DNA of 64,000 nt from Candidatus Nitrotoga sp. BS (GTDB lineage Bacteria > Pseudomonadota > Gammaproteobacteria > Burkholderiales > Gallionellaceae): positions 1 through 64,000 of the forward strand of contig NZ_CAKMLL010000061.1 in the NCBI RefSeq assembly GCF_927797785.1, written 5' to 3'. The notes under the pieces were generated by a model. That model made no database searches, was not told the DNA's origin, and worked only from the letters and a program-made list of their open reading frames with translations. The position numbers and the translations under genes are program-made. Of the stretch, positions 8,486 through 20,426 are shown in pieces; positions within the stretch are counted from its first letter, which is position 1; every line of letters starts with the position of its first letter.

Positions 8486-10660
8486 ATGGATTTTCTTTCT
8501 GGCCTAAATCCAGAACAGCGTGCTGCCGTTATCCTGCCAGAACAATCGGCGCTGATCCTGGCTGGTGCGGGCAGCGGCAAAACACGCGTGCTAACCACGC
8601 GTATCGCTTGGTTGATCAGCACCGGGCAAGTCAGCCCGCATGGCATTCTGGCTGTCACCTTCACTAACAAGGCGGCGAGGGAGATGCTCTTGCGCTTGTC
8701 CGCCATGCTATCAATCAACATACGCGGGCTATGGATGGGTACTTTTCATGGGCTGTGTAACCGTATGTTGCGTGCCCATCACCTCGAAGCGATGTTACCG
8801 CAGACATTCCAGATTCTAGATAGCGGCGATCAGCTTGCTTCCATCAAGCGGTTAATGAAAGCACTGAATGTGGATGACGAAAAATATCCGCCGCGCGAGG
8901 TTCAAAACTTTATCAGCAAAAACAAGGAACAGGGCCTGCGCGCGCATGAGGTGGAAGCCTTTGATCCCTACACCCGCCGCAGGGTGGAAATTTTTGCTGC
9001 TTATGATGAGCAGTGCCAGCGCGAAGGCGTAGTGGATTTTTCTGAGTTGCTCTTACGCTGCTATGAATTGCTGACGCGCAATCAATCATTACGGGAGCAT
9101 TATCAGTCTCGCTTTCGCCATATTTTAGTGGATGAATTTCAGGACACCAACCGCCTGCAATATCAATGGCTAAAATTATTAGCTGGGCAACACAATGCTT
9201 TGTTTGCGGTGGGCGACGACGACCAGTCTATTTATGCGTTCCGTGGTGCGAATGTCGGCAATATGCAGGAACTGACGCGCGATTTTCATGTTCAGAATGT
9301 GATCAAACTGGAGCAGAACTATCGCTCGCACGGCAACATTCTTGATGCCGCCAATGCGCTAATCAAGAATAATCTCAGTCGTCTTGGCAAGAATTTATGG
9401 ACCTCGGAAAATAAAGGTGAGCCATTACGCGTTTACGAAGCACCCACCGATGCGGAAGAAGCCAGATTCATCGCTGAAGAAGCGCGCCAACTCAACCGCG
9501 AAGGCATTCATCTGGCCGAGATGGCCGTGCTATACCGTTCCAATGCTCAGTCGCGCGTCATCGAACACGCACTGGTGTCCGCAGGGGTGGCCTATCGCGT
9601 GTATGGCGGACTGAGATTTTTTGAAAGACAGGAAATCAAGCATGCGCTGGCTTATCTGCGCCTGATACAGAACTCGGGTGACGATAACGCACTGCTGCGC
9701 ATCATCAACTTTCCAACGCGCGGCATCGGTGCGCGCACTATCGAACAATTACAGGAAGCGGCACGCGCGCAAAATATCAGTCTGTGGCAGGCGGCAAAAC
9801 AGACCAGCGGCAAGGTGGCGGCGTTTGTAACTTTAATCGAAATGATGACCGGCGCCACGCGTGAACTGCCGTTGCCGGAAGCCATCGACCATATACTTCT
9901 GCACAGCGGGCTGCTTGCACATTATCAAAACGAAACGGGTGTTAAACAACGCGAGGCTCAGGAACGGCTCGAAAACCTTAATGAGCTAATCAATGCCGCT
10001 ACCCTGTTTGTGCATGAGAATGAGGACGACAGCCTGACTTCCTTTCTTACCCATGCCGCGCTTGAGTCAGGTGAAAGTCAGGCAGAAGCTAATGCGGATG
10101 CGTTGCACCTGATGACGGTACATTCTTCCAAAGGTTTGGAATTTCATACTGTGTTCATGGGTGGACTGGAAGAGGGCTTATTTCCGCACCAGAACAGTCG
10201 CATGGCGGATGCCGGAGTGGATGAAGAACGCCGCCTGATGTACGTGGCTATCACCCGCGCGCGGCGCAGACTGTATCTCTCCTTTGCCCAGAGCCGCATG
10301 CTGCATGGACAGGTGAACTACAGCTTGATGTCCAGTTTTTTACGCGAGCTGCCAGAGAAGTTGTTGCACTGGATTACACCACGCATAGCGACACGCAATA
10401 ACTTCAGTTCTCCTGCTTATTCAACCGCTTTTGTCCCCAAGCCTCCTCCCATAAACATGAGTGGGCTTGGGGCTAAAAAGTGTGTTAGTGTGCAGAATTC
10501 ACCATGGCATATAAGCCAAGAGGTTCATCACGCCAAGTTTGGCGAAGGGGTAATAATCGACATTGAAGGTGGTGATTCAGATATGCGCGTACAAGTGAAG
10601 TTTCGCACAGCTGGTACGAAATGGCTGGCGCTGGAATATGCGAAGCTCACTCCGCTATAA
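8486..10660 (+). CDS. uvrD: UvrD/Rep-family 3'-5' DNA helicase (UvrD type)
   Basis: Superfamily 1 helicase of 724 residues. It shows the Q-motif GLNPEQRAAV, Walker A AGAGSGKT, motif Ia TFTNKAAREM, Walker B VDEFQDTN, motif III GDDDQSIYAFRGA, motif IV QNYRSHGNIL, motif V TVHSSKGLEF and motif VI YVAITRARRRLYL. The C-terminal 60 residues carry the Tudor-like HHAKFGEGVIIDIEGG segment typical of UvrD/PcrA. The best reading is UvrD (helicase II: excision repair, mismatch repair, fork maintenance); Rep is the alternative, but the C-terminal VxHxxFGxG domain favours UvrD/PcrA. It starts just after the prkB terminator and has its own leader. Confidence 0.93.
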   Translation: MDFLSGLNPEQRAAVILPEQSALILAGAGSGKTRVLTTRIAWLISTGQVSPHGILAVTFTNKAAREMLLRLSAMLSINIRGLWMGTFHGLCNRMLRAHHLEAMLPQTFQILDSGDQLASIKRLMKALNVDDEKYPPREVQNFISKNKEQGLRAHEVEAFDPYTRRRVEIFAAYDEQCQREGVVDFSELLLRCYELLTRNQSLREHYQSRFRHILVDEFQDTNRLQYQWLKLLAGQHNALFAVGDDDQSIYAFRGANVGNMQELTRDFHVQNVIKLEQNYRSHGNILDAANALIKNNLSRLGKNLWTSENKGEPLRVYEAPTDAEEARFIAEEARQLNREGIHLAEMAVLYRSNAQSRVIEHALVSAGVAYRVYGGLRFFERQEIKHALAYLRLIQNSGDDNALLRIINFPTRGIGARTIEQLQEAARAQNISLWQAAKQTSGKVAAFVTLIEMMTGATRELPLPEAIDHILLHSGLLAHYQNETGVKQREAQERLENLNELINAATLFVHENEDDSLTSFLTHAALESGESQAEANADALHLMTVHSSKGLEFHTVFMGGLEEGLFPHQNSRMADAGVDEERRLMYVAITRARRRLYLSFAQSRMLHGQVNYSLMSSFLRELPEKLLHWITPRIATRNNFSSPAYSTAFVPKPPPINMSGLGAKKCVSVQNSPWHISQEVHHAKFGEGVIIDIEGGDSDMRVQVKFRTAGTKWLALEYAKLTPL

Positions 10661-10760
10661 TAAAGACCAGAATAGAGTGTCCACATAAAATGAGCGTAAA
10701 TTGGGCAAATTTTTTCGCCTCACTATAAAGCCAGAATTATCCAGACTCTCAGGAAAGCAC

Positions 10761-12983
10761 ATGAGCAAGAAGCCAAACGAACTAAGTCCGTTACACGCGC
10801 AAGCTGAAACGCAATTTGCCCAAGTACCAGAGAAACTATGGAAGCCGCGCCCTGCCGAAGAACTTCTACAAGAGCTCCAAGTGTATAAGGCTGAACTGGA
10901 GATACAGAACGAGACGTTGTGGCAGGCACAGATTGAACTGGAAGCGTCTCATGATCGCTACATGGATCTTTATGATTTTGCCCCTGTTGGTTATCTTACG
11001 CTCACCAGCGAAGCCCTGATCGCCGAGGTAAATCTCACTGGCGCTGCGCTGTTGGGAGTCAATCGCAAGGAATTGCTACTACACCGTTTCGCACATTTTA
11101 TCGCAGAAGATTACACCGATAACTGGTATCTTTTTTTAGGGAGCTTTCTGCAACGTGATGAGCGGCAGAGTTGCGAATTGGTTCTTAAGCACAGTAATGG
11201 TCAGAACTTTCATGCGCATCTGGACTGCCTGCACATAAAAGCTGGCAACGGCGAGCACTTGGTGCGCATCGCATTTACCGATATCAGCGAGCGCAAGCAA
11301 GCCGAGGAAGCACTCAGCATTGCCGCTATAGCCTTTGAGTCACAGGAGGGGATTATGGTGACCGATGCTCACGGCGTCATCCAGCGGGTAAACAATGCCT
11401 TTGCACGCCTCTCTGGTTACAGTTCGGAAGAAGTGGTGGGAAAAACACCAGCGCTACTGAGTTCAGGACGGCATGACAAAGATTTTTTCCAAGGTATGTG
11501 GACAGCCCTGAATGAGCAGAAATACTGGCAGGGTGAAATGTGGAATAAACGCAAAAATGGCAAAATAGTTGCCGATTGGCTAACCATTACTGCCGTCACT
11601 ACACTTGATGGAAACATCACTCATTACGTTGGAATTGTTTCCGATATTACCAGCAACCCCGAGTCATTGGCTGAGATTCACCGGTTGGCCTATTATGATT
11701 TTCTCACCCAGTTGCCCAACCGCCGCATGCTGCTTGACCGTATGAAGCAGGCGCTCGCGGCCAGCAGTCGCAGCAAACATTATGGCGCCCTTCTATTCCT
11801 AGACCTGGATAATTTCAAGAATCTTAATGATACGCGCGGCCACTATATTGGCGATTTGCTGCTGGTTGAAGTCGCGCGCCGCCTTAATGCCATCGTGCGC
11901 GAAGGCGATACTGTGGCCCGGTTGGGCGGCGACGAGTTCGTGTTGATGCTGGAAAATTTAAGCGAGGATATTCAGGAAGCTGCCAATCAGGCCGGATTGG
12001 TTGGTAAAAAAGTATGCGATGCAATTGCATCGTCTTATTTGCTTGAAGGCATTGAGTTACGGTGTACAGCCAGTATCGGAGTCGGCCTGTTTTTCGGCCA
12101 TGAAGCTTCAGTCGATGAGCTGCTCAAACACGCCGATTTCGCAATGTACCACGCAAAAAAGGAGGGACGCAATAGCGTGCGCTTCTTCGACCCAGAAATG
12201 CAGGCCACGTTGATCAATCGTAGCGCGCTTGAAAGCGACCTGCACCATGCGCTAGAACGCCAGCAACTACGCCTCTACTACCAGATACAGGTAGGCAATG
12301 AGCGCCATGCTATCGGTGCCGAGGCATTACTCCGCTGGGTGCATCCCGAGCGCGGCCTGATTCTTCCCGAACAATTTATTCCGCTGGCCGAAAAAACCGG
12401 TCTGATCTTACCAATTGGATTGTGGGTGCTGCAAACGGCGTGCGCGCAACTCAGTGACTGGGCTGACAATCCGGCCACCAGCAGCCTGCAACTCTCCCTT
12501 AATGCCAGTGCGCTCGAGTTGCGCCAGCCAGATTTCGTCGAACAGGTGCAGCGGGCCATTTTAGTAACCGGAATTAATCCGACGCTTCTAAAAATAGAGC
12601 TAACCGAGAGCCTGCTAATCGACAATGTGTATGATACCGTTGCTAAGATGAATGCTCTCAAGGCTCTCGGCATCAGTTTTTCGATGGATGACTTCGGCAC
12701 CGCTTATTCCTCACTCGCCTACCTAAAACAGCTACCACTGAATCAATTGAAGATAGACCAATCCTTCATCCGTGATTTGGGCGAGAATCCCAGCAATGCA
12801 GCCCTTGTGCAGGCTATCATCCTTATGGGACGCACGTTCGGTTTAGACGTCATTGCCGAAGGTGTGGAAGACGAAGCGCAGCTAGCGTTTCTCAATTTGA
12901 ATGGCTGCCATGCCTATCAGGGATATCTGTTTAGCCGCCCACTGCCACTGGCAGAATTCGAGGAGTTTGTAGAACGAGTTTGA
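10761..12983 (+). CDS. PAS-GGDEF-EAL cyclic-di-GMP turnover protein
   Basis: Bifunctional c-di-GMP protein of about 740 aa with no membrane segment. In order it has a helical N-terminus, a PAS domain (DLYDFAPVGYLTL), a second PAS (EGIMVTDAHGVIQRVNNAFA), a GGDEF domain and an EAL domain. GGDEF is intact (ARLGGDEF) and is preceded at the right distance by an inhibitory RxxD (REGD). The EAL domain keeps its catalytic set: EALLRW, LSLNAS, ELTES, MDDFG, KIDQSF, IAEGVE and YQGYLFS. Phosphodiesterase activity is therefore expected, and diguanylate cyclase activity is possible. The ATG at 10761 follows AGGAAAG; the frame opens 20 codons earlier without a good site. The sensed signal cannot be told from sequence. 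Confidence 0.92.
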   Translation: MSKKPNELSPLHAQAETQFAQVPEKLWKPRPAEELLQELQVYKAELEIQNETLWQAQIELEASHDRYMDLYDFAPVGYLTLTSEALIAEVNLTGAALLGVNRKELLLHRFAHFIAEDYTDNWYLFLGSFLQRDERQSCELVLKHSNGQNFHAHLDCLHIKAGNGEHLVRIAFTDISERKQAEEALSIAAIAFESQEGIMVTDAHGVIQRVNNAFARLSGYSSEEVVGKTPALLSSGRHDKDFFQGMWTALNEQKYWQGEMWNKRKNGKIVADWLTITAVTTLDGNITHYVGIVSDITSNPESLAEIHRLAYYDFLTQLPNRRMLLDRMKQALAASSRSKHYGALLFLDLDNFKNLNDTRGHYIGDLLLVEVARRLNAIVREGDTVARLGGDEFVLMLENLSEDIQEAANQAGLVGKKVCDAIASSYLLEGIELRCTASIGVGLFFGHEASVDELLKHADFAMYHAKKEGRNSVRFFDPEMQATLINRSALESDLHHALERQQLRLYYQIQVGNERHAIGAEALLRWVHPERGLILPEQFIPLAEKTGLILPIGLWVLQTACAQLSDWADNPATSSLQLSLNASALELRQPDFVEQVQRAILVTGINPTLLKIELTESLLIDNVYDTVAKMNALKALGISFSMDDFGTAYSSLAYLKQLPLNQLKIDQSFIRDLGENPSNAALVQAIILMGRTFGLDVIAEGVEDEAQLAFLNLNGCHAYQGYLFSRPLPLAEFEEFVERV

Positions 12984-18881: not shown

Positions 18882-20393
18882 TCATTTCAAATGTAACAAG
18901 GGGATCAATCCAAACCAAATAATATATGTTAACGATGCCACCATCAGTCCGTCGATGCGGCCGCCTAGCCGCTGTTGTCTCCAGTTGCGGTAAATCAGAA
19001 ATCCGAGCAGGCAAACATGGGGAAGCACCCACGGTAGCAATCCTTGAAAGCTTCCGTGCAAAGCTGGCTGATCCTTGATGAGCACAACGACCAATGGTGC
19101 CGCCGCGGCCAGTATCATAGCTAGCAGCGCTGCCCTGCCTGGGCTTAGACGAACCACCAAGGTGCGCTTTCCAGCTTGTTTATCTGCCTCGAGGTCTGGG
19201 ATACCGGAAAGGATGATGGCCGGCATCACTGCCAGAAGCAGTGGCAAGCTAATAAGCCAAGGAAAGGAACTGTTCCATGCTCCGCCCTGGAATATGTAGC
19301 CACAGAGTATTACACCAAAACTGTGAGTGAGAGCCACATTGAGCTCCCCCAACCCTCGCCAAGCGAGCTTCAGGGGAGGTGCCGTATAACCCAGCCCTAA
19401 TATTGTCATTATGAGTATAACGATAGGTACAGCACTGTTACCTGCGAGGTCATCCACTAACAAGCCCGCACAGGCCGCGGCGGCCATTAATGACATCACG
19501 ATGCCCACTCGTAATTCACTGAAGCTTAGGTTTTTATCCACAAGTACCCGAGAGCCGCCAGTAAAGGGGCCAAAATTGCGGTTGCACCGGTCGCTTTCAT
19601 AGTCGAACCTATCATTGGTAAATACTGTGGCTGCTTCCAGGAAGAACAGGCAGGCATAACCCAGCCAATAGACCCATAGGTTCCAATTTCCACTGATCAA
19701 TGCCGCTCCCAATGCGCCTACCGTATAGGCCATCCAGGTCATCGGATAAAATTGGAGCCGTAACGCCTTGAGCCAAGCTTTGAGCTTAGTGGTAATACGG
19801 TCGGTATAGCTTGAGGCACCATTCCTTAAGGAAAAACCGAGCCCTCGACTTTGCTCCAACCACTGGGCTCGTCGAACCGGCTCTGAGTCCTTGACTGGAC
19901 CCAGCGCAAGAATGCAAGTAGTAGTGATGCCACAGAAGCCTAACGTGGATCGCTTCATGGCATTGTGACCGGGGGCGCGGTAGATAAATCGATATACCCA
20001 AGGTGGCATATCTAAAGTGGTAATTAAATGAGCTGTCTTGCCGGTCAGCAATCCCTCGAAGTGGCCGTCTTCACATTCTTTGAAAGCGAATCCCGGTAAT
20101 AGAACCCGATCAAGAAACCCCTTAAGACGAGCTGGCCCTACTCCCCACCAGGCAGGATAGATAAAAGCCACATGATCTGCCCACTTGATAAGCTGCAAGG
20201 CGTGTTCCAGACCAGGTTCCAGAGGCTGATCTCGAGGCGAGATCAGGTGTACATCAAAGTCGAAGTCTATCGCTCCCAAATCTATCTTTTCAACTTCCAC
20301 TCCGGCCGCTAGTGCGCCATTTTCATAGGCAGTTGCAAGAGCTGAACATAGGCTGGGGCTACGTGGATGTCCTAAGATCACAAGTACTTTCAT
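18882..20393 (-). CDS. Fusion: NAD(P)H:quinone oxidoreductase-like flavodoxin domain + UbiA/MenA-type prenyltransferase
   Basis: One uninterrupted 503-residue frame joins two enzymes. The first about 200 residues form a flavodoxin-like NQO/KefF/MdaB-family domain: MKVLVILGHPRSPS (FMN/FAD phosphate loop), then YPAWWGVGPARLKGFLDRV and LLPGFAF. Residues about 215-500 form a polytopic UbiA-superfamily prenyltransferase with both Asp-rich motifs, NDRFDYESD and IPDLEADKQAGKRTL, plus YTAPPLKL. MenA-like or related aromatic prenyltransferases are the closest in feel. Inference: it may make and reduce a prenylated quinone-type product. The start at 20393 (MKVLVI) is by family; an ATG 11 codons upstream exists, and neither has a good ribosome site. 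No partner genes are adjacent. Confidence 0.82.
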   Translation of the reverse strand: MKVLVILGHPRSPSLCSALATAYENGALAAGVEVEKIDLGAIDFDFDVHLISPRDQPLEPGLEHALQLIKWADHVAFIYPAWWGVGPARLKGFLDRVLLPGFAFKECEDGHFEGLLTGKTAHLITTLDMPPWVYRFIYRAPGHNAMKRSTLGFCGITTTCILALGPVKDSEPVRRAQWLEQSRGLGFSLRNGASSYTDRITTKLKAWLKALRLQFYPMTWMAYTVGALGAALISGNWNLWVYWLGYACLFFLEAATVFTNDRFDYESDRCNRNFGPFTGGSRVLVDKNLSFSELRVGIVMSLMAAAACAGLLVDDLAGNSAVPIVILIMTILGLGYTAPPLKLAWRGLGELNVALTHSFGVILCGYIFQGGAWNSSFPWLISLPLLLAVMPAIILSGIPDLEADKQAGKRTLVVRLSPGRAALLAMILAAAAPLVVVLIKDQPALHGSFQGLLPWVLPHVCLLGFLIYRNWRQQRLGGRIDGLMVASLTYIIWFGLIPLLHLK

Positions 20394-20426
20394 AGCAGCA
20401 TCGCTCGATTCATAAATTTCACCCAT

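Follow-up and report, generated by a model that had tools for sequence, protein, structure and literature searches.

We found that a single gene of Candidatus Nitrotoga sp. BS encodes an NQO-type flavodoxin-fold domain joined to a UbiA-superfamily prenyltransferase domain which, on sequence comparison, groups with MenA and not with UbiA/COQ2. In our estimate there is an even chance that the protein is a two-step enzyme in one chain, in which reduction of a quinone nucleus would be followed by its prenylation. The gene was analysed in a stretch of 64,000 nucleotides (positions 1 to 64,000 of contig NZ_CAKMLL010000061.1, hereafter the window), and its features are collected in Table 1.

The single frame of 503 codons joining two domains, described in the initial annotation, was confirmed as an open frame of the minus strand. 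Its coding part (residues 1-503) extends from 20393 to 18885 and is followed by the stop codon at 18882-18884; there are zero internal stops, and the plus-strand frame across 18882-20393 is full of stops. An alternative in-frame ATG at 20426 would give 514 codons and a protein of 514 aa; in two Nitrotoga relatives (L022 and L026) the open frame begins only at the later methionine. Both Pfam domains exceeded their curated cut-offs, Flavodoxin_2 with 108.5 bits (E 4.5e-31, gathering score 27) and UbiA (PF01040) with 67.4 bits (E 1.5e-18, gathering score 34.2). The assignment of the N-terminal domain to the NQO type also held in structural comparisons, the predicted fold of this half matching Smu.1420, NQO2 and NQO1 with Z about 20-22 (21.8 for 3lcm, 20.4 for NQO2 and 20.3 for NQO1). 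The KefF and KefG equivalog models scored well below their cut-offs (23 vs. 210 bits and 13.4 vs. 240 bits, respectively).

Table 1. Features of the fusion gene and of related loci. Positions are those of the window unless a locus is named.
Feature	Position	Strand	Basis
Whole fusion gene	18882..20393	-	Open frame, 503 codons + stop; Pfam
NQO-like flavodoxin-fold domain, residues 1-190	19824..20393	-	Flavodoxin_2 match; fold matches
Linker, residues 191-211, length nearly constant	19761..19823	-	Prenyltransferase half begins at 210-214 in 17/17 fusions
MenA-like UbiA-superfamily domain, residues 212-503	18885..19760	-	UbiA Pfam match; tree position; fold
NQO loop PAWWGVGPARL, residues 80-90	20124..20156	-	P-x-W-W-G-x-x-P-A-x-L pattern in 17/17 fusions
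First Asp-rich motif NDRFDYESD, residues 260-268	19590..19616	-	N260, D264, D268 invariant in 17/17
GGSR segment, residues 279-282	19548..19559	-	G279, G280, R282 invariant in 17/17; S281 not
Tyr336, the family's conserved active-site Tyr	19386..19388	-	Invariant in 17/17 fusions and three MenA rows
Thr356-His357, fusion-specific pair; Phe-Phe in three MenA rows	19323..19328	-	17/17 fusions
Second Asp-rich motif PDLEADKQAGK, residues 399-409	19167..19199	-	D400, D404, K409 invariant in 17/17
PNPOx fusion L122	2300-3976	-	One of three genomes, same class
PNPOx fusion L123	5795-7534	+	One of three genomes, same class
PNPOx fusion L124	4057-5646	-	One of three genomes, same class
Chlorite-dismutase-family gene upstream of the fusion, L024	6120-6962	+	
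Chlorite-dismutase-family gene upstream of the fusion, L021, L023, L025, L026, L055, L056			

The C-terminal domain had been described as a UbiA-type prenyltransferase. This stands at the level of the superfamily (PF01040), but the domain is not UbiA/COQ2-like, as it groups with MenA both in the tree and by BLAST. A tree of 29 rows placed the fusion half among the MenA and MenA-like rows (branch support 99/97) and apart from the UbiA, heme O synthase and phosphoribosyltransferase-type rows; the sampled rows included no labelled digeranylgeranylglyceryl phosphate (DGGGP) synthase, chlorophyll synthase or homogentisate enzyme. BLAST against the half from the window gave an E value of 9e-10 for E. 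coli MenA, as compared to 7.2 for E. coli UbiA.

In the mechanism that we propose, the cytoplasmic NQO-like domain would use NAD(P)H and a bound flavin to convert a quinone nucleus into its hydroquinone by two-electron reduction. In the membrane, the MenA-like domain would then ionise a polyprenyl diphosphate by means of its two Asp-rich motifs and Mg2+, the prenyl chain would be attached to the electron-rich hydroquinone ring, and the fusion would deliver the reduced, prenylatable acceptor at the site of use. The use of NAD(P)H and flavin, the order of the steps and a quinone acceptor other than DHNA are all predicted. According to the accessible text of the UBIAD1 study, microsomes containing this enzyme yielded zero menaquinone-4 (MK-4) without DTT, and its authors conclude that menadione must be reduced in order to be prenylated (PMC4398444). 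By analogy, the reductase domain most likely stands in, within the same polypeptide, for the DTT of the UBIAD1 assay, because the UBIAD1 acceptor needs reduction and because the accessible text on AfUbiA places the Asp-rich motifs on the cytoplasmic side of the membrane (PMC4106721), a side on which NAD(P)H would be available to a reductase at the N-terminus.

The opposite order of events, in which the prenyltransferase would make a prenylated quinone and the NQO domain would keep this lipid reduced, as a hydroquinone antioxidant or electron carrier in the membrane, seems to us clearly less probable than reduction followed by prenylation. The NQO family reduces many quinones, the fold matches of the modelled NQO half include an azoreductase solved with ubiquinone-1 (4n9q), and the plasmid copy of the fusion from Roseinatronobacter lies near catalase and superoxide dismutase genes. 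However, stress genes were seen at this one locus only, and an oxidised quinone is, as far as the accessible text of PMC4398444 goes, a poor prenyl acceptor, so that reduction would come first unless the acceptor arrives already reduced.

In the window, the genes flanking the fusion (an SBF-type transporter gene, yebC, ruvC, ruvA and ruvB) all lie on the opposite strand. No recurrent gene partner emerged when frames neighbouring the fusion were compared between loci by BLAST (E <= 1e-8, alignment over 50% or more of the shorter protein) or when neighbours were scanned with Pfam; broad sharing of gene order was seen in the BLAST comparison only between L027 and L037, and the other matches were scattered (for example GGDEF/EAL-type proteins and a cytochrome c-type pair). 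The 18 hand-picked neighbours scanned with Pfam, from eight fusion loci, belonged to mixed families, none recurring; the other two of the 20 proteins in these scans were a frame of L024, which had no match, and a neighbour of the standalone NQO locus L041. In seven of the nine Nitrotoga loci examined, a chlorite-dismutase-family gene of the same orientation is found upstream of the fusion, about 120-225 bases away in four of them; in the window and in L022 this place is taken by yebC-ruvC. L056 has just upstream of the fusion a chlorite-dismutase-like fragment of 59 residues (10657-10833, minus strand, 69% identical), and its full chlorite-dismutase gene about 4.7 kb upstream.

Somewhat less probable still than the opposite order of events is a non-quinone acceptor, that is, another lipid or aromatic compound prenylated by the membrane domain, with a reductase that acts on a different step or only senses the redox state. 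The evidence that speaks for it comes from profile and fold comparisons. The best NCBIfam score of the fusion was obtained with the generic prenyltransferase model PRK12884 (68.6 bits, cut-off 269), and a profile search of the PDB gave weak matches, with the archaeal lipid synthase DGGGP synthase first (E 0.0014) and UBIAD1 at E 0.0035. In the full-length model, UBIAD1 was the top match in the fold comparison (Z 23.5, rmsd 3.0, 268 residues aligned), but when the half was modelled alone DGGGP synthase (Z 22.6) and UBIAD1 (Z 22.3) were tied. For this reason the fold ranking was dropped as a clue to the substrate. The two-domain model has a pTM of 0.62 and does not settle the relative placement of the domains. 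Against a non-quinone acceptor, the tree and BLAST favour kinship with MenA, within the sampling of labelled rows given above, and a partner of the quinone-reductase type best fits a quinone acceptor.

The position in the tree would also suit an enzyme that is in effect MenA, with DHNA or a near analogue as its acceptor, supplied from outside or through an unrecognised pathway; we regard this as unlikely on the basis of residues and of host gene content. The MenA equivalog TIGR00751 scored 30.4 bits, under its cut-off of 102.15, and the PRK06080 models likewise remained below theirs. At six positions where three MenA rows agree, all 17 aligned fusions have other residues: Q214 and F215 in place of Lys-Thr, V257 in place of the Asn before the first motif, T356 and H357 in place of Phe-Phe, and P399 in place of the Arg that precedes the Asp of the second motif; this last Arg is retained in UBIAD1. 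The GGSR segment, missing from the three MenA rows, has near-identical counterparts in MenA-like relatives and in three PNPOx fusions described below. The replacement of MenA residues hints, as far as sequence can tell, at an acceptor other than DHNA.

Markers of the menaquinone routes were searched for in 19 genomes, 18 of which are fusion hosts. MenD exceeded its cut-off in one of the 18 hosts, a Verrucomicrobiales MAG in which a distinct MenA was also identified by model (L094), and in G300, which carries a standalone NQO only; the other 17 hosts were without it. Every searched genome has weaker MenD matches below the cut-off (50.3 bits at best in the genome of strain BS, cut-off 244.2), and the controls passed in 7 of 14 cases. 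The futalosine marker PF02621 was found in none of the 19 genomes, that of strain BS included, with 4 of 14 controls positive, so that the genome of strain BS gave a positive result for neither route. Because MenD was under the cut-off in 17 of 18 hosts and PF02621 absent from all 19 genomes, most hosts lack a recognised naphthoquinone route; together with the replaced MenA residues, this makes it probable that the acceptor is not DHNA.

Most hosts possess the fusion in addition to another prenyltransferase, since 16 of the 18 carry a further PF01040 match of more than 200 bits. The genome of strain BS has two PF01040 proteins over the cut-off, the fusion and one on contig C19, which scored 334 bits with the UbiA model TIGR01474 (cut-off 275.45) and follows a frame that reads as ubiC. 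The observation that the usual ubiquinone genes are not near the fusion was therefore borne out, the canonical UbiA lying on this other contig. A third match, on contig C62, was rejected, as it reached 23.1 bits, under the cut-off, and its frame looks like another protein, presumably an AI-2E-type transporter. In the Verrucomicrobiales MAG G803 the best other PF01040 match is a heme O synthase. In G370 (L040), which is 96% complete, the fusion is the sole PF01040 match found; either the assembly misses ubiA, or this organism has no UbiA-type protein other than the fusion.

The residues expected of a working prenyltransferase are conserved. The initial annotation had reported both Asp-rich motifs as intact, and indeed NDRFDYESD (260-268) and PDLEAD (399-404), which with the conserved Tyr are hallmarks of the UbiA superfamily, are kept in 17/17 aligned fusions. 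Seven of these 17 proteins are near-identical Nitrotoga sequences, and L027, whose frame is broken, was left out of all alignments and trees. The residues N68, D72, D76, D198, D202 and Y139 described for AfUbiA in the accessible part of PMC4106721 correspond by motif and spacing to N260, D264, D268, D400, D404 and Y336 of the fusion, and a role for Tyr336 may be proposed by analogy with Y139. It is very unlikely that the membrane half only anchors or places the reductase, having lost its prenyltransferase activity: the activity of both halves is predicted and nothing specific favours such a loss, but the Asp-rich motifs and Tyr336 are invariant in 17/17 fusions and the dN/dS of this half is about 0.11-0.13.

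Compared with six Nitrotoga homologues, dN/dS was 0.07-0.14 for the NQO half and about 0.10-0.13 for the UbiA half, and scattered between 0.06 and 0.79 for a linker of 15 codons; L037 was excluded because its alignment was one codon out of register. Judged from these ratios, both halves are under purifying selection. Phylogeny of each half gave one clade, with the standalone relatives outside: the 17 fusion UbiA halves form one group in the 29-row tree (95/95), and 12 fusion NQO halves form one group as compared to six standalone NQO relatives in an 18-row tree (100/98), from which five near-identical Nitrotoga rows were left out. These small samples are most simply explained by a single fusion event, after which both halves were inherited and transferred together. 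The branching orders of the two halves are not comparable, as few inner branches are well supported.

A search for the same fusion in related genomes had been suggested in the initial annotation, and full-length copies were found both inside and outside Nitrotoga. Among 61 relatives, nine carry it, all within the 19 genomes of the genus (strain BS included), and 18 more match with one half alone; the remaining 10 of the 19 Nitrotoga genomes, some of them incomplete, gave no full-length match. All 11 named loci match across the whole protein, one of them with a broken frame (L027); six are Candidatus Nitrotoga and belong to genomes already counted among the nine. The fusion was present in 5 of 369 genomes of the class sample and in 2 of 398 of the phylum sample, strain BS included in both, a sixth match in the class sample covering the NQO half only; among 224 matching plasmid records, one (Roseinatronobacter) reached at least 80% coverage. 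Outside Nitrotoga, 11 genomes or records have the full-length fusion, one broken in frame: L027 and its near kin G302, Noviherbaspirillum, Roseinatronobacter, G079, G231, G370, G549, and MAGs labelled in the records as Reyranella, Vitreoscilla and Verrucomicrobiales. This sparse spread is as expected for a transferred or often-lost gene.

Separate homologues of the two halves do exist, with at most 53% identity to the NQO half and about 26-39% to the prenyltransferase half, but in the trees they are placed outside the clades of the fusions. No adjacent split UbiA half was found at E <= 0.01 in the stretches surrounding L041-L046, six loci with a standalone NQO relative. An artefact of assembly or frameshift, as could be imagined from the frame of the related MAG locus L027, broken into 116 and 377 aa, was excluded with a negligible residual probability, because intact full-length copies with a near-constant junction occur in many other genomes, including the single-contig assemblies G005, G007 and G079, and in G302, which shares neighbours with L027.

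A second fusion was observed among the relatives of the prenyltransferase half. A profile of this half matched 30 of the 369 class genomes at E <= 1e-20, five of which are the NQO fusions; 15 other matching places (L107-L121) were read and are 26-39% identical to the half from the window. In three genomes (G274, G385 and G153) a PNPOx-type split-barrel domain is N-terminal to the MenA-like prenyltransferase. PNPOx_N and UbiA were found by Pfam in the two proteins scanned (L114 and L121), and the third (L124) was assigned by its 60-73% identity to them. In a 33-row tree rooted on UbiA, the prenyltransferase halves of the PNPOx fusions form a group (100/100), split from the NQO fusions by a 99/97 branch. 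The same five near-identical Nitrotoga rows, and the heme O, HAD and phosphoribosyl rows, were left out of this tree, and the standalone row X_L125 (G068) was trimmed to start 110 residues ahead of GGSR, since the upstream part of its long frame appeared to be non-coding. Since the PNPOx-fusion halves form a separate clade, flavin-type domains of unrelated folds appear, from sequence, to have been joined to MenA-like prenyltransferases at least twice, apparently independently.

The neighbours of these relatives were read in 16 gene-called loci, and ten hand-picked neighbours were scanned. A standalone MenA-like gene lies directly before nqrA and an nqrB-type gene in L127 (7314-8294, plus strand); in L126 (6699-7664, plus strand) one stands between the gene for a NiFe hydrogenase large subunit and, downstream, a gene for a NapC/NirT-type cytochrome, and in L131 (7178-8122, plus strand) one stands directly after a similar NiFe hydrogenase set (by BLAST). 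The genomes of L126 and L131 are without MenD over the cut-off. In L132 (3092-4003, minus strand) and L133 (6931-7812, minus strand) the standalone prenyltransferase is adjoined by a flavin amine-oxidase-type gene, 83% identical between the two loci. The L124 PNPOx fusion has an adjacent NapC/NirT-type cytochrome gene and, about 1.2 kb off, an NqrB/RnfD-type gene. Quinone-linked neighbours in this hand-picked set, several other loci of which showed none, are suggestive. Among the genomes with these relatives, neither MenD over the cut-off nor PF02621 was found (0/15 for each).

Reduction followed by prenylation is thus the reading that we favour, because the domains and motifs are conserved, each half forms one clade under a dN/dS of about 0.07-0.14, the prenyltransferase lies on the MenA side, the NQO half finds NQO-type fold matches, and a separate PNPOx fusion occurs in three genomes. 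The suggestion that the two halves serve the same chemistry gains indirect support, by analogy, from the PNPOx fusion and from the acceptor reduction described for UBIAD1 in the accessible part of PMC4398444. What weighs against reduction followed by prenylation is that the fold of the half alone is as close to the archaeal lipid synthase as to UBIAD1, that UBIAD1 keeps the Arg lost from the fusion, that even the best-matching prenyltransferases of solved structure show weak sequence similarity, that a recurrent gene partner was not found, and that the pTM is 0.62.

Several known systems resemble the fusion in part. MenA shares with it the side of the tree, both Asp-rich motifs, Tyr336 and the GK-T of the second motif, but differs in the replaced positions, the TIGR00751 score, the fused reductase and the hosts, which are mostly without MenD. 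UBIAD1 resembles it in the fold of the full model and acts on a reduced quinone nucleus (PMC4398444, accessible text); however, it has no fused reductase and retains the second-motif Arg, it is tied with DGGGP synthase when the half is modelled alone, and its profile match has an E of only 0.0035. NQO1/NQO2, MdaB and KefF (Flavodoxin_2) have the domain family and fold of the N-terminal half, but are free-standing or soluble partners, whereas here the domain is joined to a membrane enzyme. Fusions of UbiA-like prenyltransferases are already known. In IspH-UbiA, which its authors read as a Rosetta stone protein in the accessible text of PMC4746011, an isoprenoid-related enzyme is likewise N-terminal to the prenyltransferase, but IspH makes the prenyl donor, whereas the NQO partner would prepare the acceptor. 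HAD-UbiA (PRK08238), found with 662.9 bits in the related Nitrotoga genome G005, also has a soluble N-terminal partner, which is however of phosphatase type, and it belongs to a different tree branch. The PNPOx-MenA-like fusion (L122, L123 and L124) is new here; it shares with the NQO fusion an N-terminal flavin-type redox domain and a MenA-like half with GGSR, but its redox fold is unrelated and its prenyltransferase half is a separate clade. A literature search at the level of titles and the opening parts of abstracts, with most subscription journals and supplementary files outside its scope, found no report of this NQO fusion.

The fusion suggests that quinone reduction and prenylation are linked directly, within one chain, and its retention in distant bacteria points to a membrane quinone made by an uncharacterised route. 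Drawing also on the standalone relatives beside nqr genes, a NiFe hydrogenase gene set and NapC-type cytochromes, we tentatively put forward, as a possibility that we rate well short of probable, that bacteria without a detected menaquinone route make an uncharacterised prenylated quinone, that a broad MenA-like family, standalone in some genomes and at least twice fused to unrelated flavin-type domains, would prenylate a hydroquinone other than DHNA, and that the Nitrotoga protein would be the self-reducing version of that MenA-like enzyme. Since two unrelated redox folds are fused to such prenyltransferases, the shared chemistry of the two halves is testable. If true, the fusion would offer a single-gene handle on the role of MenA-like prenyltransferases in bacteria without a detected DHNA route, and might open the way to a new lipid quinone of nitrite oxidisers, which are important in the environment.
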